Below, piece by piece: positions 987 to 24,735 of a DNA stretch of 36,219 bases. The translations under genes and the position numbers were made by a program. The notes under the pieces are model-generated. The model ran no database searches. It was not told where the DNA came from and saw nothing but the letters and a program-made list of their open reading frames with translations. Source of the stretch: a virus; IMG/VR virus record IMGVR_UViG_3300031539_000139, positions 1-36,219 of that record; one strand, 5' to 3'. Each line of letters starts with the position of its first letter. Position 1 is the first letter of the stretch.

Positions 987-3293
987 TCACAAGACCTTTA
1001 TTTCGCTTCCGATCGCATTCTTTTCCACCATGATTTCCTGTTCGAATGTTCCTTGAATTCCTTCGACGTGGCTGATAACCAAAATCAATCCGAAGCTGGT
1101 TTCGAGTTTGCTCAAGCATTCTCGCAACAAGGCCAATCCATCATTGTCTAAACTTCCCAAGCCTTCATCAATGATGAGGGTTTCCATTCGGGATCCAGCG
1201 CGGTGCATGAGAAGTTGAGACAACCCAAAGCGCAAAGCCAAATCCAGCCTGAACTTTTCACCACCGGAATAATTTTCATAAGGTTTTTCCCCAAATACAT
1301 CGCGCACCAGAATGTCCAGGGTTTCCCCAATGCGGTCAGAACTTTTCAAAGCCTTTTGTGTTTCCAATCGAATTCGCATTCCCGATGGGCTGATCTTTTC
1401 CAGGATGGAATTCGTGGCAGCTTCCAAAGTGGGTACGGCCCCTTCCATAATCATCACGGGGATGGTGGTGTAGTAATGATGCAGCTGCTTGAAAGCTTGA
1501 TTCCTGTTCTGTGTGTCAGCAATTGATTGAGTCAATTCTTTGACAGAGATTTGAGCAGCTTCCGAATGAATTTTTTGTTCTCGAAGACTTCCCACTCGCT
1601 CCGTCACACACTGCATTTCCTCTTTTAAAGATGCTGCCTTGCTTTGTAGTTGGTCTTCGACATCAAAGGCTTCTGTTAACCATTTAGCCAGCGCAGTTTC
1701 TTCTTCAGCCTTCCGTAATTTGATTTGAATCTGATTGTTGAGTTTGTGCATCATGTCATCATGAATGGTTGACACCTCCGCCAATTTTTCGACTTCTTTC
1801 AACGCACTTTCCAATTCGGGTTTCAGTTTGGATACTGGATAGATGCCTCTCATCTCGTCTTGTATCTCAGTCAACACTTTGGAGAAGGCTCCTTTCTCCG
1901 ATGCAATTGCTTGTCGCTCCTCTCTCAACTTCTCAAGCTTTTCTTTCGTGTCCGTCAACTTCAAATTTTTAATTTGTTGCAACCGTGTCTCATAATCCTT
2001 TTCATAATCAGGCAGTTGTTCACGCACAAAATTCCTGGCCTCTAAAATGGTCAATTGATCTTTCTTGCCTTGCAGGTTTTCGATGGCCTGCACAGCCTCA
2101 ATGGTAAATTGACATTTTTTCTGTAACTCTTCCCAGCATGGGACCAACTCAAGCAATTTCCCTTGCTGAATATATTGGCCAATCTCATTGCTGGCCTTGC
2201 CTAACTCCACATTCTTCTGGCTTTCAATTAAGGCTTTTTTGTGCTCCAACCCTCGCAGTTCACTTTCTACACGAAGCAGGGTTGAATCCTCTCTGCCTTT
2301 GCGTTCCATGGCCTTCTGCATCTCACTTTCAATTACCAAAAGCTTTTCCGTTACTTTGTTTTCTTCTTCTCGCTTCGCTTCAACAGTGCGCGTCAAGAAT
2401 TCATGCTGTTCAGCCTTTTGTAGAATTTCATCCTTTCGATCAATCAATATTTTGTAATATTCTCGATCAGATTTATTGCGTTCAATCTTGATGTTCAGCT
2501 CATCCCGTTCCTTGAATAAACCATCCAGCCCTTCCTTCTCTTCCAAGATGGCATTCAGGGCCGATTGCTTCTTCCCCTTTTCCTCATGATGGGTTTTCAG
2601 TTTGGTGTTGCAGGTCATTTGATCCGTTGAATACATTTGCAAATCGGCTTCAGCTTTTTTGATTAGCTCATTGATCGGGATCAACATATTCGCCAAGGCT
2701 TGCACTGCCACCAGTTGACCTTCAACACCCTGGATTTGATCGGCTGTAACTTGAGCTTTCCGATTGGCCATCGTTCGCAGAACAGCATACTCATCAAGTT
2801 TTAAGACTTGGGCAAGAATGGCTTTGCGTTCAGCGGCACCAGCGGTAGAAAACTTATCGGCCTTACCTTGAATAAGAAAGTTCGAATTGGCGCACAACTC
2901 ATAGTCAGCATTCAGCACAGATTTGATGGCCTCTTGTGTCTCTAGTATTTTATGCCCACCAACCGGAACCCAGCTGTCTTCATTCTTGGCCAAGAATGAC
3001 AGCTCCGTTTTGCCTGCCTTGGTTTGTCGGCTCCGAGTTCGTTGCACACGATACACTTGACCATCCAAAGAAAAATCCATGGTCACACTCATTCGCAATT
3101 GATCGTGACTCATCATCACATCAGGTTCACCGCGACATTTTCCAAACAAGGCCCATAACGGTGCATCCACAAAGGCAGTAGATTTCCCTGATCCATTCTT
3201 GCCGGAGACCGTAGCGGAAACAATGCCGGACAAATCAATGGTACTGTGTAAATGCGAAGCGAAATTCTCTAATTCAATCCGTAGAATCTTCAT
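987..3293 (-). CDS. SbcC/Rad50-like ATPase of a phage recombination nuclease (T4 gp46-like)
   Basis: This 768-residue protein has the plan of an SMC-like nuclease ATPase. The N-terminal ATPase lobe carries a Walker A motif (GKNGSGKS, residues 31-38) and a Q-loop region near 139-145 (NFLIQGK). A long charged coiled coil covers about 180-620. The C-terminal lobe has the ABC signature SGGE at 676, Walker B LIIDE at 706-710 and a switch histidine in ISH near 742. With the SbcD-like partner encoded just upstream it should form a nuclease complex that processes DNA ends for recombination-dependent replication or repair. It is shorter than E. coli SbcC and closer to phage versions. The coiled-coil apex lacks the expected CxxC zinc hook; the nearest pair is C386 and C394 (CX7C). 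The start overlaps the sbcD-like stop as ATGA. Confidence 0.92.
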   Translation of the reverse strand: MKILRIELENFASHLHSTIDLSGIVSATVSGKNGSGKSTAFVDAPLWALFGKCRGEPDVMMSHDQLRMSVTMDFSLDGQVYRVQRTRSRQTKAGKTELSFLAKNEDSWVPVGGHKILETQEAIKSVLNADYELCANSNFLIQGKADKFSTAGAAERKAILAQVLKLDEYAVLRTMANRKAQVTADQIQGVEGQLVAVQALANMLIPINELIKKAEADLQMYSTDQMTCNTKLKTHHEEKGKKQSALNAILEEKEGLDGLFKERDELNIKIERNKSDREYYKILIDRKDEILQKAEQHEFLTRTVEAKREEENKVTEKLLVIESEMQKAMERKGREDSTLLRVESELRGLEHKKALIESQKNVELGKASNEIGQYIQQGKLLELVPCWEELQKKCQFTIEAVQAIENLQGKKDQLTILEARNFVREQLPDYEKDYETRLQQIKNLKLTDTKEKLEKLREERQAIASEKGAFSKVLTEIQDEMRGIYPVSKLKPELESALKEVEKLAEVSTIHDDMMHKLNNQIQIKLRKAEEETALAKWLTEAFDVEDQLQSKAASLKEEMQCVTERVGSLREQKIHSEAAQISVKELTQSIADTQNRNQAFKQLHHYYTTIPVMIMEGAVPTLEAATNSILEKISPSGMRIRLETQKALKSSDRIGETLDILVRDVFGEKPYENYSGGEKFRLDLALRFGLSQLLMHRAGSRMETLIIDEGLGSLDNDGLALLRECLSKLETSFGLILVISHVEGIQGTFEQEIMVEKNAIGSEIKVL

Positions 3294-4480
3294 TGGTTCA
3301 CCTCTTCACACAATTCTAAATGGAGTTGACGACATAAGGAAAGCGCTGGTTCTGCCACAGAATCCCGCTCTAGGCACCGTTCTAAGGCTTCGTAGGTGTT
3401 CATTTGATTGGAAAGTTGATTGTCCCGTGTACGGTCTTCTCGTTCAATCTCCACATCCACCTGAACAAAGTTCAAGGCTTGAGCGAAGCGTTGAATGGTT
3501 GGCATGACTTGAGGGACATCGGCTTCTGGGATCGTGTCTTTAATGCGATACACAATGTTTTCTTCGCCATAATTGGGCACCCACAAAGCCAACTCCTGCA
3601 CGGTTAAGGTTTTGTAGACTCTGGCATGTGGGTTTTCAATGTGAGCGGTCGTGACTCCACCAGGTGCAAAGTCACACACCAAAAACCCTTTGCGTTCTTT
3701 CTCTTCTCCAAACCCTTGTCGAAGCAATGACCCGCAGTACATGCCTCTCTCTCCAACACTTTGCGTCTGATGAATGTGTCCAAGTGCCACATAATCATAC
3801 GCTCCTGCCACTTCATTGATCGGAAGAAAGACATCATGGGCAAGTGTGCGGGGTTGTTCCCCGACAGTGGCATTCTCCACCGATCCATGTGCCAGCAAAA
3901 TTTTGTGGTCCACCTCACGGCCACTGTGCTGCATTCGGAATGTGGCCAAAATGTTCGACAGCCCGCGATTGATGAAACCAGTCAACTCCTCCGGCGTACA
4001 GGTTTTTCTGTTTTCATGTTGCATGGAAGCGGTCAACCGTCCTCGGCTTGGATAAGGCAAGCAATCAATCAGGATCTTTTTTCCTTCCACATCCAATACT
4101 AATGAATCCGGCTTTTGTACTACATGGACATTGAGAAAGCTGACTGGTTCTAAGGCGGTAGCCAGATGAGAAGATTGCGCGATGTCATGATTGCCAGCAA
4201 TCACCACCACTTGCACACCATCATCTGAACACCGTTCAAGGAATTGCATTACCACACGAAGTTCGTCCATGGTGGGTTTGTTAGAGTCGAAGACATCACC
4301 AGCCACAAGCAAAAGCTGAATGTGTTCTTTGGTGATGTAGTCGTAAAGAAAATTCAGTGAGTTTTGGAAATCCGTGAGGGTGATGGACAACCCAGTAGCG
4401 GGATCAATGAGTAACTTTCCTCCGACGGTACCCATAGATTTTGGATGCCAATCGCCACTATGAATTGCGCGAAGACTCAT
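3290..4480 (-). CDS. SbcD/Mre11-like nuclease (T4 gp47-like)
   Basis: A 396-residue calcineurin-type metallophosphoesterase. All canonical metal-binding motifs are present in order: D10-W-H12, GD at 61-62, GNHD at 96-99, AHG at 197-199 and GHIH at 234-237. This is the Mre11/SbcD pattern. The protein should be the nuclease subunit paired with the SbcC-like ATPase encoded four bases downstream (ATGA overlap at 3290..3293), making and trimming DNA ends. The ribosome binding site AAGGCAGG lies seven bases before the ATG. The start codon also overlaps a TGA in the frame of the preceding HNH gene remnant, so the two were once translationally coupled. Confidence 0.94.
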   Translation of the reverse strand: MSLRAIHSGDWHPKSMGTVGGKLLIDPATGLSITLTDFQNSLNFLYDYITKEHIQLLLVAGDVFDSNKPTMDELRVVMQFLERCSDDGVQVVVIAGNHDIAQSSHLATALEPVSFLNVHVVQKPDSLVLDVEGKKILIDCLPYPSRGRLTASMQHENRKTCTPEELTGFINRGLSNILATFRMQHSGREVDHKILLAHGSVENATVGEQPRTLAHDVFLPINEVAGAYDYVALGHIHQTQSVGERGMYCGSLLRQGFGEEKERKGFLVCDFAPGGVTTAHIENPHARVYKTLTVQELALWVPNYGEENIVYRIKDTIPEADVPQVMPTIQRFAQALNFVQVDVEIEREDRTRDNQLSNQMNTYEALERCLERDSVAEPALSLCRQLHLELCEEVNQ

Positions 4481-14350: not shown

Positions 14351-15034
14351 CTAGGCAACTGTAAGTCGATGCGCCAGCCAGTTGGTTGCAGACTCGCCCA
14401 CGAATTTTATGGCTTGCCATTGGGTTGTGATTGTGAGATTTGAGGCTGATGCATTCATTGTATCAGCTCCACCTCTTGCAATGGTCAAGGCCGTGGCTGC
14501 ACCAACGCTTGTAATCAAAACTTCTTTTCCTGGTGCCGCTTGAGGAAGAGTGATCGTGAAGGCCCCGCCTATAGTATTGCCATTGATTTTCCGATCATTG
14601 GGCAAGGCTTGATAAGTTGTGGAAACATCAGTCACATAGTCGAACAGTTCTCTTGTTATGTCAAAAATATCAACCCCATCGGTCCAGATCCAATGGACAT
14701 AGTTTCGGTCCAGAACAATATTGGCCCCACCGCCGCCAATGACTTCAAAGTCCAACACAAAGGCTCCGGTGGTGTTGTTCTTCAGCATGTAAAGCATATT
14801 GCGAGCTGGCACCGTAACCGTCACATTCCCAGTGAGAATGCCTGAGAATTCTAACCGCATATCTCGCACTTGGTCGTTGGTCAGATCCACATCACCAGGT
14901 CCACCTGCAACATCAATATTCGAAGCCGATGTTATCTTTCTTTCCAGAATATCGGTTCCCTCATTGACGGTGACTTCCTTTTGGCTTTGACCTTGTTCAA
15001 CATGGTCGATGATGAGAATCGGGCTTTGTGGCAT
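14351..15034 (-). CDS. Putative tail fibre or tail tip protein
   Basis: A 227-residue protein with no signal peptide, Thr/Asn/Gly-rich and beta-structured (GNVTVTVPARNMLYMLKNNT, then ITLPQAAPGKEVLITSV). The pattern of repeated short strands and IxLP segments is that of phage fibre or adhesin proteins. It follows the C-terminal hub gene by 11 bases, and GGAG precedes its ATG by eight bases. It probably attaches to the tail tip and contacts the receptor. It is not assigned to a specific family. Confidence 0.6.
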   Translation of the reverse strand: MPQSPILIIDHVEQGQSQKEVTVNEGTDILERKITSASNIDVAGGPGDVDLTNDQVRDMRLEFSGILTGNVTVTVPARNMLYMLKNNTTGAFVLDFEVIGGGGANIVLDRNYVHWIWTDGVDIFDITRELFDYVTDVSTTYQALPNDRKINGNTIGGAFTITLPQAAPGKEVLITSVGAATALTIARGGADTMNASASNLTITTQWQAIKFVGESATNWLAHRLTVA

Positions 15035-15045
15035 TGGTTCAGCTC

Positions 15046-16062
15046 CTACACAACAGCATTGGCGGGGTATCCCCTACCGATGAGGTTGCTCATTTGATAA
15101 ATCGTCACGGCCACTCTACTTTGAATTCCTCCAAAGTCTGTGGTCTGGTCTGCGACGGTATAGATGAATTGCTCGCTGGTGCTTTCAAGGGTTCGCACCA
15201 CGGCTCCGGTATTGTCCGAGATGTCCATTTCATAACTCTCCTGGTCTTGACCAAGAGGTACATCGACAAAATCAATCCACTCAAACCTGATCCGGCTCCG
15301 ACGATGAAAGGTGATGGTGATTTCCCCCGGCCCATCCCTCGTACTTCGAATAATGGCTGGCTTCCAAGGTCTTTGACTGACCCCAGTGTTCACGAATGGA
15401 GTCACAGCTGCAGAATAGACTGGCAAGCCTGCGCCAATAATTTTCAGGAACCGTTGAGCGTTGGTGTCTTCCGTATTCTGCACCACTCGGCGCACAGAAT
15501 CGGAATCCAGCACAACGAACGTTTCTCCGGCCACATGCGCTGACATATTCAACTCCGTTCCCAACCGGCCTCGCAACAACCTACTCAGTCGGTAAATGTT
15601 GTTTCCTAAATCCGTGCTCGTGACCCATTGAATAATTTCGCTCCCAAGCAGAGCCACATTGGCCCCATTGAGCACGACCAAATCATTGGCCGCTGACCCT
15701 GGTGGTGTGCCGGTAAACATTTTGATATCGACGGAATGCACTTTGTCAAAGACCATCCAAGAGGGAAGGCCAGGACGAGGCTCCCCTTTGGATGGCCGTG
15801 CGACCTCAATAACAATTTGTGAAAGCTGGGCTTCAGACAATGGTTCCGCACGAACCACTTCCACCACCACTTGAGACACTTTGATCGCTTGAGCTGGTGG
15901 GATTGCACGTAGAACATCCACAAAGGAACCGGATTGCCTGACCACTGGGGCTGAAGATTTTCTTAATACCTCAACCACCTGTTGCGTGACCTGAATGGAA
16001 GGGGCGTCAGGATTTCTGGCCACCTCGACGGCCTGTTGCGTGACCTGAGGTACGTTCGCCAT
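15046..16062 (-). CDS. C-terminal part of a split GTA-type tail hub protein
   Basis: A 338-residue protein. Residues 1-88 are five imperfect repeats built around V-x-Q-x-V-V-E-V-x-R (VTQQAVEVAR, VTQQVVEVLR, VSQVVVEVVR, LSQIVIEVAR). From about 95 the sequence matches the C-terminal region of the large GTA/phage tail hub (RcGTA gp15-like): FDKVHSVDIKMF, NGANVALLGSEIIQW, YRLSRLLRGRLGTE, then FVVLDSDSVRRV and a closing FN3-like domain with TFHRRSRIRFEW. In the usual protein this directly follows the domain that here ends the gene at 19212..21911. Three lectin-like genes separate the halves. The start shares one base with the previous stop (TAATG). Confidence 0.8.
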   Translation of the reverse strand: MANVPQVTQQAVEVARNPDAPSIQVTQQVVEVLRKSSAPVVRQSGSFVDVLRAIPPAQAIKVSQVVVEVVRAEPLSEAQLSQIVIEVARPSKGEPRPGLPSWMVFDKVHSVDIKMFTGTPPGSAANDLVVLNGANVALLGSEIIQWVTSTDLGNNIYRLSRLLRGRLGTELNMSAHVAGETFVVLDSDSVRRVVQNTEDTNAQRFLKIIGAGLPVYSAAVTPFVNTGVSQRPWKPAIIRSTRDGPGEITITFHRRSRIRFEWIDFVDVPLGQDQESYEMDISDNTGAVVRTLESTSEQFIYTVADQTTDFGGIQSRVAVTIYQMSNLIGRGYPANAVV

Positions 16063-17066
16063 TAAGCCACTTTCTCCACACCAAATTCAGAGGCGTTGAA
16101 GGTGGTATCCGTCCAAGCAGCGACGGCTTGTGGGTCTTGTTCCCAAATCTCTCGGATATTGGCCCATGCCGTACCCAGGACAAAATTGGCACCGTTAAAA
16201 TTGACGGTGGTGGGTCTGGTCACTTGTCGAATGGTGGCAGCTCCACTATCCACCTGAGCCTGACAGTTGGCTTGCACCGCTAGGATGGTTGACCCACCCG
16301 TGATGGTTGAGAGGTTAGCAAAGGTAAAAAGATCCAGATCGGTATTCGTGGCCGTGTCAATAAATGTGGTCAAATCGTCTATAGCTGGGCTTTCGTCTAC
16401 GGCTTGCCAATGTGTAGCCGCCCCCGTGACATTGGCCCACTGCGTCACATTTCCGGCCCCGTCCGGTACCACATGTTCCACTTCGCAATCGCCTAAAAAA
16501 TCATTGTTCAATGATCCGGTAATGTCGCAAATATACAGATCATCAAAATTGATGGTGCCTGCTAATCCGATCCCATCGATGGTAGGGGTTCCCGCATTGC
16601 CCGTGTCTTGGTTGGTTAAATTGAGCAACACTTCTCCGTTGTAGCGAATCTCCACAGTGCCCACTGTGTTGCTGACCAACACCTTCGCTTCCAAATATCC
16701 CCAGGTATCTTGTCGGATGCGACTCAATGTGCTGATGCCCAAAAGGTTGGAGGTGGGTGCGCCGCGATAGGCTGACACAAATCCACCAGGTTCCAGGCCG
16801 ATCACGACATGCGTGGTTGCACCTTCCTTGAACGTGAACGCATTGCCCCGAGCGGTATTGGTCGTCCGAAAGATGGCGGCCCCTACAACATAGGTCGTTT
16901 GAGCTGGAACAGTAAGATCCACTGTAGCACTTGCACTATTGCACACCAACCCTTGTGTACTCCGTCTTCCTGATGAGGCGCCAATGGTGGCATTTGACAT
17001 TGCGGTCCACTTCCTCACAATGTCGGCGGTTTCATAGTGGTCGAATGAATCCATGAACAACAGCAT
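16062..17066 (-). CDS. Lectin-like (concanavalin/LamG-type) tail protein, paralogue 3
   Basis: A 334-residue protein, third of three tandem paralogues. The N-terminal 200 residues have the LamG/concanavalin-like jelly-roll pattern of phage tail proteins: MLLFMDSFDHYETADIVRKW, a strand series including TTHVVIGLE and EIRYNGEVLLNL, and FDDLYICD. The C-terminal 130 residues end in IWEQDPQAVAAWTDTTFNA followed by SEFG, a hallmark ending of these tail proteins. It probably binds cell-surface glycans or forms a tail-tip adhesin. It shares one base with both neighbouring genes (TGATG and TAATG). Confidence 0.75.
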   Translation of the reverse strand: MLLFMDSFDHYETADIVRKWTAMSNATIGASSGRRSTQGLVCNSASATVDLTVPAQTTYVVGAAIFRTTNTARGNAFTFKEGATTHVVIGLEPGGFVSAYRGAPTSNLLGISTLSRIRQDTWGYLEAKVLVSNTVGTVEIRYNGEVLLNLTNQDTGNAGTPTIDGIGLAGTINFDDLYICDITGSLNNDFLGDCEVEHVVPDGAGNVTQWANVTGAATHWQAVDESPAIDDLTTFIDTATNTDLDLFTFANLSTITGGSTILAVQANCQAQVDSGAATIRQVTRPTTVNFNGANFVLGTAWANIREIWEQDPQAVAAWTDTTFNASEFGVEKVA

Positions 17067-18193
17067 CAGACTACCTCCATTCCAAAATTCGTTGCGTTGA
17101 CTTCGCTCTCAAGCCACTGGGCAGCTGTTTCAGGATTTGTTTCCAAGATTTCTTTTTCGCCCATCATGACTGTCCATGATTCGGCGCTGACGCCCTGAAG
17201 GGTTTGATTGTAGATGGTGGCAACCGGCTGAACGAGGTGCCGCACTTGCACATCACCAGAATCATTTTGCTTTTTGATGTACGACCATGGTTGGACACCC
17301 AAGACCACTGATGGCAAGGGATGCACCGGCAGCGCGCTTCTCCCAAAGACATCACGTTCGAGTATTGGGGCTCCAGCCGCCAAAAGTCCCGATGGTAGCA
17401 GATACGTCTTGCCGTCTTTAGGATCTTGCAGGCTTTCACCTGTCCACAGGAGAAAGCTTGCTGCGGTGGTGGCCGTTTCATTGTAACTGGTGTCTTCATC
17501 CACCGGCATCTCATCCACATTTTCGAAATGGTTGACTGAAGGTGTGGCGGTATCGAATTCTGCAATATCATCACTGATAGGGGACAACGTGTCGACTCGG
17601 CAATTTCCAAAGAAGTCGTTATTGACTGAGCCTGAATCATCCGCAATGTATAAGTCATCCACTCGCACACCCGCGCCGGTATTTCCCCGAAAGTCTAATG
17701 ATTGAATGTTTGGAGAAGTGCCTGAGCCTTGGGTATCCACTCCACTGAGCATGAGCACAGTCACGTTATCTAATCGCACTTCAACGGTGCCCAAGGTGTT
17801 ATGAACGAACAGCTTGCATTCAAGGTAGGTGTACGCATCCGTGATCACGGTTGCCACACTGGTCCCGAGTGACACGGTGCCTGATCGCAACACTTCCACT
17901 GTTCCATTCACATTGATTCGTAACCGACACTGCACTGAACTTGCTGGGTCGCCCCACTCAATAAGATTGATCACGCCAGTGAGTGGGCTTAAAGGATTGA
18001 CTGCAATGCCGACAATGCTCGTGCTGGTAGAATTCACTCCGACTTCAGCCGTGGTGCTAAAACTCCATAGAGCATTGCCGCCACCATTTCTTCCACTGGC
18101 TTGCAGAGTGGCCGTGCCAAACCGGCCCCATTTTTTTTGCAATTGCGCCACACTCAGCGCACCATCAAAGCCTTCCATAAATAGCAAAGCCAT
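17066..18193 (-). CDS. Lectin-like tail protein, paralogue 2, with inserted peptide module
   Basis: A 375-residue paralogue of its two neighbours, starting MALLFMEGFDGALS at 18193 (TAATG overlap with the previous gene). The jelly-roll half includes VQCRLRINVNGTVEVL, VEVRLDNVTVLML and VDDLYIAD; the end NPETAAQWLESEVNATNFG is shared with the family. Between residues about 245 and 295 it carries an insertion absent from the other two copies. This contains the peptide SFLLWTGESLQDPKDGKTY and is encoded by DNA nearly identical to a stretch at 32735-32833. An origin by recombination with another structural gene is likely. The protein probably contributes to host recognition. Confidence 0.75.
   Translation of the reverse strand: MALLFMEGFDGALSVAQLQKKWGRFGTATLQASGRNGGGNALWSFSTTAEVGVNSTSTSIVGIAVNPLSPLTGVINLIEWGDPASSVQCRLRINVNGTVEVLRSGTVSLGTSVATVITDAYTYLECKLFVHNTLGTVEVRLDNVTVLMLSGVDTQGSGTSPNIQSLDFRGNTGAGVRVDDLYIADDSGSVNNDFFGNCRVDTLSPISDDIAEFDTATPSVNHFENVDEMPVDEDTSYNETATTAASFLLWTGESLQDPKDGKTYLLPSGLLAAGAPILERDVFGRSALPVHPLPSVVLGVQPWSYIKKQNDSGDVQVRHLVQPVATIYNQTLQGVSAESWTVMMGEKEILETNPETAAQWLESEVNATNFGMEVV
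17363..17461. repeat. 99-base dispersed repeat, copy A
   Basis: This stretch matches 32735-32833 at 97 of 99 positions, in the same orientation. It encodes ASFLLWTGESLQDPKDGK and the following residues to AGAPI inside the middle lectin-like paralogue. The two mismatches are transitions. Confidence 0.95.
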
Positions 18194-19215
18194 TATGCGA
18201 CCTCCGCTCCCCATTCAGCCGTGTTGACTCCGGTTTCCGTCCAATCCGCTGCTGTGTCGGGATCTTGTTGCCACATCTCCACATAGTAATCGAACAACGT
18301 GTCCAGTGGATTGATGGCCCCTTGGTAATTGGTCACCCCGACTCGTGCGATAGGCCGTAAGGATTTGGCCGTGACTTTATCTTTTCGTGCATACACCAAT
18401 TGCTGTACACCAAAAATTGCTGAACTTCCACCTGGATCAGAAAGGGTTTCCATGTCGTAGGTATCAATGTCAGCCGCATCTTCACTTGAAACAAACGTCA
18501 CAGCATCGTCTGGTGTGAGGTCATCCACTTTGTCAAAATGTGTGATGGGTGACACAGGTTCAATGATGGGAAAATTTTGCACGGCGCCATCAGCGACCGG
18601 CACGAGGGATTCAATTCTCGTGTCGCCGAGTATGCCGTTTTGTGGAGCTGCTCCGGTGGTGTCCAAGATGTACACATCATCGAAGGTGAGCACACCCGTT
18701 GACCCATTGATTTCAATCGCATTGATTTCAGGGACCGCCCCAGCGTTATCAGTATCCAGAGCTGTGAGGCTTAACAGATTGGTATTGTTCATGTTCACCG
18801 TTACCACACCAACGGCCCCATCGACCGTACACAGCACTTCCAAATAATTATAAAAGCCTGGGAAGACCAACCCCGCACTTGTGATTCCCAGTTGGGTTAA
18901 ATCTCCACGTAAGACTTCGATGGCTCCGGTGGGCGTGATGCGAATAATGACATGATCGGTTGCGCCTTCTTTGAAGATCAACAAATCACACACCAGTAAC
19001 AAATTCAGTTTAAAGGCAATGCCGACAACATAGGTAGCCAAGGCCGGAACGGTTTGCTCAAGCTTTTGTGCGGTACTTGGAAACTGGATGGCATTCCCTG
19101 CTCGTCGACCAGCTCCGACCACCACTAACGGGACACCTGTTACGGTGGACCATCGTTGGGCAATGTTGGCTGTCGCATAATGATCGCCGCATGAGTTGAC
19201 GTATACAAGACTCAT
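18193..19215 (-). CDS. Lectin-like tail protein, paralogue 1
   Basis: A 340-residue protein, first of the three tandem paralogues in transcription order, beginning MSLVYVNSCGDHYATANIAQ. It shows the same plan: a jelly-roll half (DHVIIRITPTGAIEVL, VVTVNMNNTNLLSL, FDDVYILDTTG) and a C-terminal half ending in MWQQDPDTAADWTETGVNTA followed by EWG. The start overlaps the N-terminal hub gene stop as ATGA. Tandem copies that diverged in sequence but kept their plan suggest different sugar or receptor specificities, or an assembly of three related subunits. That is inference. Confidence 0.75.
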   Translation of the reverse strand: MSLVYVNSCGDHYATANIAQRWSTVTGVPLVVVGAGRRAGNAIQFPSTAQKLEQTVPALATYVVGIAFKLNLLLVCDLLIFKEGATDHVIIRITPTGAIEVLRGDLTQLGITSAGLVFPGFYNYLEVLCTVDGAVGVVTVNMNNTNLLSLTALDTDNAGAVPEINAIEINGSTGVLTFDDVYILDTTGAAPQNGILGDTRIESLVPVADGAVQNFPIIEPVSPITHFDKVDDLTPDDAVTFVSSEDAADIDTYDMETLSDPGGSSAIFGVQQLVYARKDKVTAKSLRPIARVGVTNYQGAINPLDTLFDYYVEMWQQDPDTAADWTETGVNTAEWGAEVA

Positions 19216-21911
19216 GAAAAACTTCCTTCCCAGGTCAATTGGCTTTCCGCAAATCCAATATTACCTTCGTTTTGTATGATGGCTCCGACCCCATAGATCA
19301 CGCCATCAGAGGATTGTAACACTGAAGCCACCTCATACGGCCCACCAATGGCATAGGCCACGACATACACGCCAGTATTGTTGTCAGCGTCCCTCAACTG
19401 TGCCGTGTCCATAATAATCAGCACAACCGGCGCAGTGGTGAGCAAGCCAGGTTGCGGTTGCAAGCCTACGGCCCCAGGTGAAATGAAGTCAGCATACACG
19501 CTGGTATCTTCTTCTGAGGCTTCCACATCCATCAGGTTCGGCAAACTCAGGGCCACACTATTTAATCGCACGTTGATTGGCCCTTGATCCGGCGACGTGA
19601 TGATCACGATGTCCGTCGGTTCCAACGCAAAATATCGTTTGGAAAGTGTGAAAGTTTTCTTCGTGCGTTCAAACCAAAGATTGTGCAAGAGCACATCCAC
19701 CACCGATCGCCCCTCAGTGGCCGTGAGCACAATCGGGACGTCTTGGGTTCGCACCTGTTCAGATTCGGTAATCAATCTCCTGGCCTGAACCACTCCAATT
19801 TTGTAGTCCGTGTCAAGGCTGATAAATCGCAAATCTAAACTGGTGGCCAATTCATTTTCTTGGATGCGTACTTGCTCAATGGGGTCGCCTGGTTCATTCA
19901 CCGTTCGTCTGGCATTCATGTCTCCGGCTGGAATAGTCACCACTGGCGTGGCTCCCCTTGGAACGAATTTAATGACATCATCAGACTCCACCGCATCAAA
20001 GAAATAGGTCTGCATCAATGGTTGCAAGGCCGCTCGAACAGGTTGCCGCTTTGAAAGAGAATACCCGCGCACGGTGAACGGAATTAACAGCGAGACATCA
20101 ATATCAGCGGCCGTGAGTGTGCCGCTCAGCTCCACAATGTCTGTGACGACTTTGGCCAGTGTCGGGGCTTTAGCTTTGGCTCCTTGGCCAAGTGGAAACT
20201 TGACGACACCCCCCAGCCCATCTAAGCGTGTGGCAATGCCAAAGGGCGCACCAGGGAAAGGTTGGAAGTCATCAAAAAACCCGCTGAACCCTAACACGAA
20301 TTCATCTATAAACCCGCCTGATTCTTTATTGACTCGCTTGGCTTTATTCTCAAGGCCAGACACTCTTCCTACCGCCCACACATCCCCCACGCCTTGATGG
20401 TAGCGCACACGAGTCGGCATGAAGTCATCACCGGCAATCTTAAAATCAAATTCCCAAATCTGATTCAAGTCTTTGTCCCACTTGGCAATGCGGCCATCAG
20501 TACTTAAGGCAAATTCAATCTTCGTATAAATCATTTCCTCTTCTGGATCCCAGGTGATGGAATGCCCATTATCGGCAAAGCTGGCCAAGCCAACCACCTT
20601 TTTTTCCACGGTGCCATGTCGAAGTAAAAATAAATTTCCGCTTGAATCCACTACCGCCACACCTTCATCAATTGACACCCAATCAGCCACGTACCGTCCA
20701 CCAGCCACGTTCCAGGCATTGTCTGGAGCTTGAGGGTTGGGCTGCTGAATACCCGGAGCCAAGGGATTCAGGCCGAAGGTTTGCAATCCACTACAGGCCC
20801 CATTGGTCAACCCGATAAACAAGGTAGGCGAGTTCCCAATGACTGGCCCATCCAAATTGATCGAACTGAGATCCACAATGCACTGGCCGGGCCAGCAAAA
20901 AAGTGATCCACCAAAAGGACTGGGAATGGTATCCAACACTCTGCACGAAGCATCAGTGGCCAACGCAATCACTTCTCCACCTAAGCCATCGGGCGTTCCT
21001 GATGCCACCCACATTTTCGGTCCGATGGTGGCCGTGGTCACCGTCCCCAAAAAGTCCACATTGACCGCCACGAAGGCTGGCATGTAGGAAATCCCAACAG
21101 GTGTTATGATTCCTTCATGAGCACAAACCCTAGATAAACCGTTATTGCATTGATAAACATCTACATGATCTGTTCCAGCCCTAGTTGCCCAAATCAATCC
21201 GGTGTCTGGATCTATCGCAATGCGGCCATTCCCTCCACCCGTGGGCGAATCCACGACTTCCACCAAAGGCAAGACAGGATCGCCATTAGCATGAACTTCA
21301 AAGTGTAAGGTCGGAATGCCGTTATTGAATGGAGTCAAATCCAACCGCCTGAGCATGATGTATGCCTCACCACGATAGGCAGGCACATTGCCCACGCCTT
21401 TATCCGCTTCAATCAATGGGTCAGGGAGTTGTGAGTCCGTGCCGAAATAAATTTTGGCGTTCAAGCCTTTGGCGTGTGGTGGGTTGGAAAAATCATAGAA
21501 CAATTGATCGTTGGCCCATACTCTTCCTATCCCATCAATCTGGTGATGGGCAAGAGAAATTTGCAAATCGACTTCGTAGGAAAATGAAATAGATTCTTGT
21601 TTCGGGCTTCCACCTTTGCCCCCGCCTGATTGACTTTGCTTGTGAGCAATTTCCCTGATGTCTGAATTCCAAATAATATTTCCAGCCACTCGCACCGACC
21701 CGAACAGGTGCGGAATAGGGTTTCCGTAGGCACTGACCTGTACTTGTAAATCGCCCAACTGTGGTCCAAGTTGAGCCGGTGGATCAGGCCCAGGAAAAAG
21801 CAACGCCCCTGCAATTCCTCCAATGGCCAACCCCAACCCAGGCACACCAAAGAAGGCCCCGACAATACCGCCAGCGACGACGAGGCCCAGTCGTGCTTGT
21901 GAATCACTCAT
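19212..21911 (-). CDS. N-terminal part of a GTA-type tail hub protein with beta-propeller insertion
   Basis: An 899-residue protein. Residues 1-40 are a hydrophobic Gly-rich segment typical of these hubs. Residues 50-215 carry the conserved opening (YGNPIPHLFGSVRVAGNIIW, SFSYEVDLQISLAH, AYIMLRRLDL). Residues about 218-577 do not belong to the standard hub and look like an NHL/beta-propeller domain (RIAIDPDTGLIWATRAGTDH, VAVVDSSGNLFLL). From 584 the standard domain resumes: VVTDIVELSGTLTAADIDVS, RAALQPLMQTYFFDAVE, and a C-terminal region up to YEVASVLQSSDG. The usual final part of the hub is encoded separately at 15046..16062. It should form the central tail tip and take part in host contact and DNA delivery. 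The start overlaps the NlpC/P60 stop as ATGA. Confidence 0.88.
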   Translation of the reverse strand: MSDSQARLGLVVAGGIVGAFFGVPGLGLAIGGIAGALLFPGPDPPAQLGPQLGDLQVQVSAYGNPIPHLFGSVRVAGNIIWNSDIREIAHKQSQSGGGKGGSPKQESISFSYEVDLQISLAHHQIDGIGRVWANDQLFYDFSNPPHAKGLNAKIYFGTDSQLPDPLIEADKGVGNVPAYRGEAYIMLRRLDLTPFNNGIPTLHFEVHANGDPVLPLVEVVDSPTGGGNGRIAIDPDTGLIWATRAGTDHVDVYQCNNGLSRVCAHEGIITPVGISYMPAFVAVNVDFLGTVTTATIGPKMWVASGTPDGLGGEVIALATDASCRVLDTIPSPFGGSLFCWPGQCIVDLSSINLDGPVIGNSPTLFIGLTNGACSGLQTFGLNPLAPGIQQPNPQAPDNAWNVAGGRYVADWVSIDEGVAVVDSSGNLFLLRHGTVEKKVVGLASFADNGHSITWDPEEEMIYTKIEFALSTDGRIAKWDKDLNQIWEFDFKIAGDDFMPTRVRYHQGVGDVWAVGRVSGLENKAKRVNKESGGFIDEFVLGFSGFFDDFQPFPGAPFGIATRLDGLGGVVKFPLGQGAKAKAPTLAKVVTDIVELSGTLTAADIDVSLLIPFTVRGYSLSKRQPVRAALQPLMQTYFFDAVESDDVIKFVPRGATPVVTIPAGDMNARRTVNEPGDPIEQVRIQENELATSLDLRFISLDTDYKIGVVQARRLITESEQVRTQDVPIVLTATEGRSVVDVLLHNLWFERTKKTFTLSKRYFALEPTDIVIITSPDQGPINVRLNSVALSLPNLMDVEASEEDTSVYADFISPGAVGLQPQPGLLTTAPVVLIIMDTAQLRDADNNTGVYVVAYAIGGPYEVASVLQSSDGVIYGVGAIIQNEGNIGFAESQLTWEGSFS

Positions 21912-22405
21912 GCAACCCGCCTCATCCGGAAAACGTGTTCAATCTTTTCCATCCATTCCTGATCCAATCCATGTTCGGTGACTTTCCGAAATTGCGCTGA
22001 GCTATGGAGCACACCAAGATTTGTGATGATGGCCACATGGCGACACGGAATTCTTAAGTGGTCATCCATGAACCGCATCAACACTAAATCTCCCGCCTGC
22101 ATTTCTGCTTTCGTGATCTTGTCAAATAGTCGATTCATTTCACTGAACAAAAATTTCTGGTCAGGATGGTGGGTATAATTGTTCGGAATGGGAATGTCTC
22201 GGCCAATCTCTTTCGCCACTTCAGAAAATAATCCGATGCAATCAATCCCGCTCTTCGAACGACCTTGATGCCTGAACTTGCTGCCCATCCATTTCCGCGA
22301 ATGGAGAATGATTTGCTGCACTTCAACATCGGTCCAGGTGGGTTTACTTCCCTCCTGAATCTTGGTCGATTTTGGCTGGGCTGACTCTAAAATTTTGACT
22401 GACAT
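21908..22405 (-). CDS. NlpC/P60-type tail peptidase (TIGR02219-like)
   Basis: A 165-residue protein with the NlpC/P60 signature. The catalytic Cys is C56 in GIDCIGL, the His is H123 in CRHVAIIT, and a second polar residue lies about ten positions later (H134). In GTA-type tails this protein lies between the DUF2163 protein and the hub and is thought to cut host peptidoglycan or help assemble the tip. The start at 22405 overlaps the end of the DUF2163 gene by 62 bases. An internal GTG at the codon before QQIILHSRKW is an alternative but has no good binding site. The C-terminal overlap with the hub gene is ATGA. Confidence 0.9.
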   Translation of the reverse strand: MSVKILESAQPKSTKIQEGSKPTWTDVEVQQIILHSRKWMGSKFRHQGRSKSGIDCIGLFSEVAKEIGRDIPIPNNYTHHPDQKFLFSEMNRLFDKITKAEMQAGDLVLMRFMDDHLRIPCRHVAIITNLGVLHSSAQFRKVTEHGLDQEWMEKIEHVFRMRRVA

Positions 22406-23414
22406 AGGGTTCGCCTTGGAAGTTGTGCGTGTTATTAAATTTGTCTTTGCAGTCGATAATCACTCGCTTGAAACAACCCAGTTGCACAGAGAAGGTGTCG
22501 CCCACGGTGAGGTCGAACCACATGGGCAACACCAGTTTAAAATTTCCATCAAGCATCACGTAGGCTTTCACTTCCATCTGTGCCCCAGCATTCAAGCCGG
22601 TCAACCATTCCAACAATCCACCCGTGAACAAATCATCGGCCTCTGTCCGATCAGAATTGAACACCCTTTTATTGCCGAATAGTGCCGTGACGGTGCCGGT
22701 GACTTTATTGGCTTGCACAGCAACCCAGGTCACGGTTCCATCAAGGGTGGTGTTGCCAATAGTGGTATCCCAAACGGGTTCGCTGGCTCCGGTGGTGCCA
22801 GAAATAGAACACCGAAAAAATCTTCCATTCTCTACCGTGGGTCTGACAGTCGCGCCAAGCTTGTAATCAAACGGAGTGATGTTGACCGTCAAAGTGGTGG
22901 CAGTCCAGACAGGTGGGTCCATCTTGACCCCACACACTGAGTCGCCCACATCGACACGGCAACCTGGTTGATACAGATCCAGCGTTTGTTTCGTGAATCC
23001 TTCCATGAGGCCACGAACTTCAGCGGTGAGTTTTTGCCTCCCGAGTGAGACTTTCCCAATACGCCCACGGCGCAGCTTGAGCACACCCGCCGCTGTGTCA
23101 TTGGGATTGATGAGGAATAATCGAACATCAGCAAAATCCCATTTGCCTCGAAGCAAGTCAGGCCCATCAATGCCTGTTAACGATCGGTAGGTTGTGACAT
23201 CCAGATTGTCTACGGACAGACCTGAATTGGATTGCAAAGCGGTCGGAGTTGCGGCATCAACGGCTGAAAAGGTGATGCCCTCAAACTGAATAGGTCGAGT
23301 GTAATTGGTGAAGCCGAGCACGGTGCCATCTTTGGCCGTGAGTCTTATGCAGGCATTCAAGGTCGCTGACGAGCTGGCCAGGTACCCATCCATGGCTGTG
23401 GTCGTGGTCTTCAT
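22344..23414 (-). CDS. DUF2163-type distal tail protein (TIGR02218-like) with extra domain
   Basis: A 356-residue protein. The N-terminal half reads as DUF2163: ACIRLTAKDGTVLGFTNYTR, SGLSVDNLDV, ADVRLFLINPND and RGRIGKVSLGRQKLTAEVRG, then the Cys-containing YQPGCRVDVGDSVCGV. The C-terminal part has FKRVIIDCKDKFNNTHNFQG and a final SQNFRVSP. Between about 185 and 233 lies a small extra domain (FFRCSISGTTGASEPVWDTT, DGTVTWVAV) of a type often found in phage tail proteins. In GTA-like tails this protein joins the distal tail protein to the hub. Four conserved Cys may bind metal or an iron-sulphur cluster, as discussed for this family; not verified here. Confidence 0.9.
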   Translation of the reverse strand: MKTTTTAMDGYLASSSATLNACIRLTAKDGTVLGFTNYTRPIQFEGITFSAVDAATPTALQSNSGLSVDNLDVTTYRSLTGIDGPDLLRGKWDFADVRLFLINPNDTAAGVLKLRRGRIGKVSLGRQKLTAEVRGLMEGFTKQTLDLYQPGCRVDVGDSVCGVKMDPPVWTATTLTVNITPFDYKLGATVRPTVENGRFFRCSISGTTGASEPVWDTTIGNTTLDGTVTWVAVQANKVTGTVTALFGNKRVFNSDRTEADDLFTGGLLEWLTGLNAGAQMEVKAYVMLDGNFKLVLPMWFDLTVGDTFSVQLGCFKRVIIDCKDKFNNTHNFQGEPYVSQNFRVSPAKIDQDSGGK

Positions 23415-23416
23415 GG

Positions 23417-24490
23417 TTAGTCGTTGAACAAACCCACCATCGGGACATCAGGAATATCACCCAATTCAAAAGCTGCCAACGATACCATCATTTCATCCAT
23501 ATCAAATCGCACCGGCACATCGAATTCTCCTGTCCAATCCATCACATCGGTCCCTGGTTGCAAGTGCATTTCCGCATCACCACCTGAAACATATTCTGTG
23601 AAGGCTGAGGAATCGATAGCGATGTCAAAACGATCAGATCCATCAATAGTGATGGGAGCAAAGAGGTTATTGATTTGCGTCATGCCAGTGACGTTAATGA
23701 TGAAAATGATTTCGGTGGAGGAATAACCGTGAGCGATACTTCTTACCCTGGCCGGATTGCTTCGACTGATTCCTGGCTGCTGTGCTGTGGCTCCGGTTCC
23801 ATCATAGGCGGTGAATAGAGTTGAATCTATTCCGACTAATTCAAAACTTGTCGTGCTTATTTGGTTGATAATATATTCGCCATCAGGAAGTTCCACCATG
23901 CCATTCGTCGCTGCACCTGCAATTTTTATATAATCATTGTCGATAAAGTCATTGGCCGCCACCGTCACCAAAGCAGGACTTGCTAAGCTGATTGCGCTAA
24001 TTGCAAAGACACTGGAGCTTGCAATAGGATTTGTCGCGTCAGGGGTTAACGTCGCAAGGCCCGTGGTCAAGTCCAACGAGAAGGCAGCGAAAGGGGCTGA
24101 ATTCCGCCTCATCGTCACAGCCGGACTTGCCACGGGTTTGCGAATAGTCCGAACAAACGTGGTTGGTCCAGAAGGGTAATTCTTCACCAGTTGGATTTGG
24201 TTTGATCCATCAACCGTCATGACTTGCAGGCTGGCTTCAAAATCCCTGAAGTCTTTGTACCGAAAGCCTCTGAACTTTCCCATCCGTGCATAGAAAAAAT
24301 CCACAACCAGATTGATGTCAGCAATGCTTTTCAATCCGCTTCGGGCATTGAACCGCTGATCCGCATCACCATAAATCGCCACTCGTGATTCAAAAGCATT
24401 TTCTTGCCGGACCACATCGGTAAGGAAGACCGGCCCACCTCTTGACCCGTAAGCAATGCGCGGAGGAAATTGTACTTCGTCAAAAGCCAT
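23417..24490 (-). CDS. DUF2460 distal tail protein (TIGR02217-like) with two inserted repeats
   Basis: A 357-residue protein. Residues 1-150 are typical DUF2460 (MAFDEVQFPPRIAYGSRGGP, NLVVDFFYARMGKFRGFRYK), and the family ending GEFDVPVRFDMDEM lies at 321-334. The family is normally about 200-220 residues. The surplus is at about 168-310, where two tandem units resemble the FCCH-type repeat common in phage tails (GMVELPDGEYIINQISTTSF with TAYDGTG; VTGMTQINN with TEYVSGG). It forms the distal end of the tail tube. The start at 24490 shares one base with the previous stop (TGATG); a start four codons upstream is less likely. Confidence 0.9.
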   Translation of the reverse strand: MAFDEVQFPPRIAYGSRGGPVFLTDVVRQENAFESRVAIYGDADQRFNARSGLKSIADINLVVDFFYARMGKFRGFRYKDFRDFEASLQVMTVDGSNQIQLVKNYPSGPTTFVRTIRKPVASPAVTMRRNSAPFAAFSLDLTTGLATLTPDATNPIASSSVFAISAISLASPALVTVAANDFIDNDYIKIAGAATNGMVELPDGEYIINQISTTSFELVGIDSTLFTAYDGTGATAQQPGISRSNPARVRSIAHGYSSTEIIFIINVTGMTQINNLFAPITIDGSDRFDIAIDSSAFTEYVSGGDAEMHLQPGTDVMDWTGEFDVPVRFDMDEMMVSLAAFELGDIPDVPMVGLFND

Positions 24491-24735
24491 CAGCTGCCCC
24501 ACTTCGGTTGATAGGGTTGATGAATATACACTCGGACTTGATTGGGGAGACCAGGTACTTGATCCAATCGTGAATCAGGCCGACACCAACAATGCCCACC
24601 TTCAGCCCAATGTTCTCCGGTGTTCGGTGCCACTTCATGAACGGATTCCACTTGGTCAGAGAATTCTTTCATCTGGCAACAGTACACATGATCCATTTTG
24701 AAGTAATACATGTTATGAATTTCTGGACAGCGCAC
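24490..24735 (-). CDS. Small Cys/Trp-rich protein between tape measure and distal tail genes
   Basis: An 81-residue protein with four Cys, two of them in the CWC motif (EGGHCWCRPDSRLDQV), starting inside the last codons of the tape measure gene (23-base overlap) and ending in a one-base overlap with the DUF2460 gene. Its size, strand and coupling suggest a real gene. Many siphoviruses have a small protein in this slot. The cysteines could bind metal. No family is recognised. Confidence 0.65.
   Translation of the reverse strand: MRCPEIHNMYYFKMDHVYCCQMKEFSDQVESVHEVAPNTGEHWAEGGHCWCRPDSRLDQVPGLPNQVRVYIHQPYQPKWGS

Follow-up and report, generated by a model that had tools for sequence, protein, structure and literature searches.

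A GTA-type megatron encoded as two polypeptides, with a lectin cassette between the halves and a repeat array as its candidate attachment module

The window (the whole stretch of DNA analyzed here, a linear IMG/VR record of 36,219 bp) carries a GTA-type tail module on its minus strand. In this module, genes for a tape measure protein, a DUF2460 distal tail protein, a g13-type hub, and an NlpC/P60 peptidase are accompanied by the genes of a split megatron and a fibre-like gene. The features discussed below are as follows.

23417..24502, minus strand: distal tail protein (GTA g12-type, DUF2460), assigned by Pfam
22344..23414, minus strand: baseplate hub (GTA g13-type; Phage_phiJL001_Gp84_N plus Phage_BR0599), assigned by Pfam
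21908..22405, minus strand: NlpC/P60 cell-wall peptidase (GTA g14-type), assigned by Pfam
19212..21911, minus strand: megatron N-part, 899 aa, with iris/penetration, adhesin-like, non-TIM-barrel peripheral, and central (Phage-tail_3) domains and the start of the fiber-binding region, assigned by Pfam, PHROG, and PDB sequence searches
18193..19215, minus strand: lectin 1, 340 aa, phrog_2448 family, assigned by PHROG
17066..18193, minus strand: lectin 2, 375 aa, assigned by PHROG; start moved from 18214 on the basis of a Shine-Dalgarno site and TAATG
16062..17066, minus strand: lectin 3, 334 aa, predicted jelly-roll plus C-terminal beta region, assigned by PHROG and structure prediction
15772..16062, minus strand: repeat module (C-part residues 1-97), five V[ST]Q..VEV.R repeats at a spacing of about 18 aa, the third degenerate
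15046..15771, minus strand: main part of the megatron fiber-binding region (C-part residues 98-338), assigned by Rcc01698_C and the phrog_4271 C terminus
14351..15034, minus strand: tail-fibre-like protein, 227 aa, assigned by weak PHROG tail-fiber matches

The five ORFs from the N-part to the C-part lie on the minus strand where a preliminary description of this DNA had placed them. The 1- and 4-base overlaps reported there were recovered (4, 1, 1, and 1 nt along N-part/lectin 1/lectin 2/lectin 3/C-part) only when lectin 2 begins at 18193, where a GGAGGT Shine-Dalgarno sequence and a 1-nt TAATG overlap are found, and not at the start given in the ORF list. Each of lectins 1 to 3 and the C-part is preceded by its own Shine-Dalgarno-like site. 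The description had called the split protein a hub; it is indeed a GTA-type tail-tip protein, but it corresponds to the megatron (g15), whereas the hub of RcGTA is g13 (here 22344-23414). Elsewhere in the window, the distal tail protein (23417-24502) carries, within its C-terminal half, inserted segments that match E1_FCCH and Ig-like domains, and SbcC-like and SbcD-like genes adjoin at the low-coordinate end (987-4480).

In RcGTA, the megatron comprises iris (residues 1-46), adhesin-like (47-229), peripheral (230-744), central (745-984), and fiber-binding (985-1304) domains, the last of which is mobile, being attached through a 20-residue linker (PMC7296036). The N-part matched Pfam Phage-tail_3 (E = 9e-34; central domain) and phrog_4271 (E = 3e-118, best stretch at profile positions 3-207), and it covered residues 9-210 and 731-1048 of RcGTA g15 (6tba). 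The N-terminal iris and adhesin-like region is thus present, with N-part residues 8-215 aligning to RcGTA residues 9-210. The 338-aa C-part matched only the C-terminal end of megatrons, namely, Rcc01698_C (E = 1e-17), positions 1061-1305 of the 1,309 in phrog_4271, and residues 1218-1438 of the R4C megatron, which places the C-terminal fiber-binding region on a separate polypeptide. Judged by these alignments, the 899-aa and 338-aa proteins cover neighboring stretches of one GTA-type megatron (RcGTA g15) and do not overlap. This agrees with the earlier proposal of complementary halves cut at a domain boundary, although the N-part makes up about four fifths of the megatron and not the first two thirds. 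The two proteins did not map to the same hub region, the second did not belong to an unrelated family, and it was not found beside an intact hub, the three outcomes that the description had set against its own proposal.

N-part residue 881 aligns to RcGTA residue 1048, so about the first 80 residues of the fiber-binding region stay on the N-part and the cut falls within that region. When the junction was aligned, the cut came to lie in a short joint preceding the '..W..D..N.V.V' strand of intact proteins. The spacing between the central and C-terminal domains is 141 aa (113 + 28) in split relatives that lack repeats (L009), versus a median of 135 aa in 116 intact proteins; thus, no megatron sequence is missing. 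Pfam returned no match to a TIM-barrel-like peripheral domain in N-part residues 216-548. This segment (window positions 20268-21266) has NHL/beta-propeller-like sequence in place of the GTA TIM barrel, which suggests an exchange of the peripheral domain, possibly for a beta propeller.

About 120 megatron loci were examined for whether the central and C-terminal domains lie in one ORF or two. Both were encoded by one ORF in 116 loci (113 distinct sequences), and a clean two-ORF split between them was found only in the window and four relatives (L012, L009, L011, and L035), with the N-part complete at its 3' end in all five phages. The window therefore holds a split derivative rather than a standard member of the megatron family. 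Apparent splits in L163, L182, and L199 were judged from their ORF layout to be frameshifted or decayed, and that of Ccr34 was set aside because the megatron is intact in its close relative, phiCbK. A related-locus search with the C-part alone as the query returned no matches. Wherever the contig of a split relative extends far enough, the C-part is followed by the fibre-like gene, which is kept in L011, L012, and L035.

The five split phages form one clade (support 100/100). The concatenated tree has the topology (L035,(window,(L012,(L009,L011)))), with inner supports of 100/99 and 100/97, the latter for the nesting of L009 and L011. According to this tree, the common ancestor of the clade already had both the split and the cassette, and the gene did not rejoin when the cassette was later lost. 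L009 and L011 are nearly identical contigs from different metagenomes in which the N-part and C-part are joined by the same ATGA overlap; the split is kept, and the lectins and the 97-aa repeat segment are absent. Their C-part begins 'MTGLPSWMVF', the exact point at which the window repeats end ('...RPGLPSWMVF'). The simplest history is that an ancestor had both split and cassette and that L009/L011 lost the cassette, repeats included, in one in-frame step. This pair amounts to a deletion experiment made by nature, which suggests that the phage can do without the cassette as a unit, with its megatron still in two pieces.

At the other end of the clade, in the more distant L035, a single 679-aa ORF runs from the third lectin through five repeats to the megatron C-part, so a lectin can be carried covalently on the C-part via repeats. 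L035 is the same contig as L154 (GenBank QIDY01000198.1), the outermost split member, and was binned into a Nitrospirae metagenome-assembled genome (MAG), which hints weakly at a host outside the Alphaproteobacteria. Taken together, the joint loss in L009/L011, the fusion to a lectin in L035, and the position beside lectins in unrelated phages indicate at the sequence level that the repeats belong to the lectins.

Lectins 1, 2, and 3 matched phrog_2448 with E values of 9e-36, 9e-24, and 5e-31, respectively. The structure predicted for lectin 3 (pLDDT 94.8) consists of a jelly-roll and a further beta region. Foldseek matched this model with a probability of 1.00 to galectins and to the alginate lyase Aly36B (E values of 1e-5 to 3e-7; TM about 0.6 on galectin length), as well as to uncharacterized or virion proteins of several phages. 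The designation "lectin-like," a guess when it was made, is now supported at the level of a predicted ConA-like/galectin jelly-roll fold, and the proteins presumably bind host glycans. Between the window and L012, lectin 1 (74% identity) keeps pace with the megatron (75%), whereas lectins 2 (52%) and 3 (63%) diverge faster. L035 has a clear counterpart for lectin 1 only (54%; the others reach 32 to 34%), and lectin 1 is the most conserved of the three. The faster divergence of lectins 2 and 3 suggests that they may face the host, with lectin 1 nearer the base. No reverse transcriptase of a diversity-generating retroelement was found in the window record.

The pairing of repeats and lectins extends beyond this clade. 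An alignment of 12 lectins was too diverse to serve as a query, and tblastn with the short, divergent repeats gave no matches among phage records; DNA patterns were used for both. The lectin pattern search yielded 120 stretches, and custom HMMs plus a motif rule were applied to 11,601 ORFs. Spaced V[ST]Q..VEV motifs occurred in 32 of these ORFs (0 repeat ORFs in shuffled proteins), 28 of which lie directly downstream of a lectin gene and one of which (phiCbK) lies directly upstream, in counts that use a strict motif defined from the window and loci that are not phylogenetically independent. When the motif rule was omitted, internal repeats (period 15 to 24, z ≥ 6) were found in 58% (78/135) of post-lectin genes versus 1% (3/250) of other genes at the same loci; as some loci are near-copies, these and the adjacency counts describe the sample and not independent events. 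Many post-lectin repeats are sequence variants (e.g., ARTAVEVLTQ, LAQVSVEVLE, and QAQKVYAEVI).

Searches anchored on the repeats gave a similar picture. Two repeat-only DNA patterns retrieved 10 genuine repeat loci, with a lectin in nine and directly adjacent in eight. At L034 the lectin is 802 nt away, and at L150 the contig ends at the repeat gene. Matches in L146, L147, and L149 proved spurious on translation. Such a lectin was present in only 10/125 megatron-anchored loci (Fisher p = 3e-8 versus 9/10), and the single repeat ORF among those loci overlaps a lectin gene by 4 nt. Repeat number also rises with the number of contiguous lectins (Spearman rho 0.66, p = 1e-5, n = 36; automatic counts, with a p value that ignores shared ancestry). 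The coefficient stayed at 0.64 to 0.71 after counts were corrected by eye (window and L035 to 5, L047 to 3) and relatives were dropped in turn. Against the known family phrog_13560, the window repeats scored E = 0.07, and those of L040 and L088 scored 8e-10 and 3e-12.

The repeats are mounted on different proteins in different phages. In the split clade they are fused to the megatron C-part; in L037 (6874-7668; E = 3e-55) and L123 (4405-5688), to the N terminus of a DUF2460 distal tail protein; and in Tetraselmis phage S20, to the attachment domain of a g13 hub, between LamG and hub domains. Other partners are LamG, F5/8-type C, or S74-chaperone proteins, and some arrays are free ORFs of about 63 to 100 aa, as in phiCbK. 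L033, L077, and L131 have an intact megatron, with lectin and repeats a short way downstream of its gene. It is about as likely as not that all of these represent one portable cassette distributed across several phage lineages, in which the repeat array would act as a universal docking strip for one or more lectins, either free or fused to any available baseplate component (distal tail protein, hub, fiber-binding domain of the megatron, or tailspike), and that its mounting split the megatron of this clade.

The complementary halves, the single split clade, the joint loss of lectins and repeats, the L035 fusion, the adjacency of repeats and lectins, and the other fusion partners can all be read from the sequences. 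We consider it likely that they reflect a megatron working as two polypeptides together with a portable lectin cassette whose repeats serve as its attachment module and keep the lectins on the baseplate; we infer that the halves assemble and that the repeats bind or hold the lectins. The N-part, as a trimer, would form the core of the tail tip. The C-part, providing most of the fiber-binding region, would join it non-covalently and hold the fibre. The three jelly-roll lectins would be translated between the halves by stop-start coupling, and the five repeats at the start of the C-part would hold them, or a lectin multimer, on the baseplate beside the tail fibre. The phage would thereby carry extra sugar-binding heads. 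The lectin-repeat pair would be portable, being elsewhere fused to a distal tail protein or baseplate hub, or free. The placement of the cassette between the halves and the earlier suggestion of a modular adsorption device are both supported by these data.

The chance that an artefact (of sequencing, of assembly, or from a pseudogene) accounts for the split is negligible. Decayed or frameshifted megatrons do occur (L163, L182, and L199, above), but in this clade the same stop and start recur in five contigs from separate assemblies whose proteins are 52 to 76% identical to those of the window, every long frame is open, and the genes have their own Shine-Dalgarno sites. A sequencing frameshift is ruled out by the stop itself, '...LTWEGSFS*', which the window shares without change with L012, L009, L011, and L035, and the conservation of the split across contigs refutes the artefact explanation as a whole. 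The preliminary description suggested that the repeats, which begin the C-part exactly at the break, perhaps bridge the two halves. We regard this as very improbable, since the break is the same in L009 and L011, where repeats are entirely absent; if these two short contigs come from working phages, as we assume, and not from defective ones, something other than the repeats must keep the halves in contact. Repeats also occur in the phages with intact megatrons noted above (L033, L077, and L131). A more serious contender, although we still doubt it, is that an unrelated event split the gene first and the cassette merely landed at the new gene boundary. The stability of the split without the cassette in L009/L011 and the existence of another megatron split (the Lucius group, below) would fit such an order of events, but no split-only phage branches before the cassette in the tree, and the outermost member, L035, has both.

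The repeats might instead be only a flexible spacer or stalk that keeps the C-part (and other fused domains) off the core, with the lectins attaching by contacts of their own. The window repeat segment alone is predicted to be disordered (pLDDT about 25), and the S20 repeats, internal between LamG and hub domains, are linker-like. Such disorder fits strands that order on binding and a flexible spacer equally well, and lectins, being separate genes in most phages, might attach elsewhere. Nevertheless, we consider this reading unlikely. Free repeat ORFs beside lectin genes have no domain to space, and repeat number follows lectin number; both points favor docking. The repeat motif is also conserved, hydrophobic, and strand-like.

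The closest known counterparts are RcGTA Rcc01698/g15 (6TBA; PMC7296036) and the R4C megatron (8GTC; PMC10276861), which share the domain order, the gene order g12-g13-g14-g15-fibre, and the pair Phage-tail_3 and Rcc01698_C. The window differs from both in having two polypeptides, a non-TIM-barrel peripheral domain, and a lectin cassette with repeats between the halves. Caulobacter phage phiCbK likewise has a repeat ORF (gp316 in RefSeq; 69 aa, phrog_13560-like) beside a lectin (gp315, phrog_2448-like); unlike in the window, its repeat gene stands alone upstream of one lectin, and an intact megatron lies elsewhere in the cluster. PMC3556154 lists the virion proteins that were detected, and gp315 and gp316 are both absent from that list. 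In Tetraselmis viridis virus S20, a lectin again precedes repeats that are joined to a baseplate protein, but that protein is a g13-type hub with an extra LamG domain, and the megatron is intact. In the branched receptor-binding protein systems of Klebsiella phages, one subunit with anchor domains (T4gp10-like) carries attachment sites for several receptor-binding proteins; by analogy, the window cassette may work in a similar manner.

Searches of an open-access library turned up no account of either a split megatron or the pairing of lectins with repeats, a negative result that goes only some way toward showing absence. Databases already contain the megatron as well as the lectin family and one repeat family, the latter two listed as of unknown function; what may be new is a general module behind the split-megatron variant. 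The docking model would give a function, and a means of testing it, to two uncharacterized families (phrog_2448 and the phrog_13560-like repeats) present in many phages, including the laboratory phage phiCbK. It also suggests how phages could gain or lose receptor-binding proteins while keeping the tail design unchanged.

The megatron of the Sphingomonas phage Lucius type is also split by an inserted gene, but the cut lies near residues 75 to 100, in a disordered loop, and both the site and the 69-aa insert are unrelated to those of the window. In Lucius (L020:3893-6874), L085, L101, L127, and many similar contigs, the N-terminal 75 aa of the megatron form a separate gene. In the four named, a conserved 69-aa gene (TWFARQGLDF...LLATGDAMA) separates it from the rest of the megatron. 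The Lucius-type cut lies near a loop reported to be disordered in R4C (residues 95-113).
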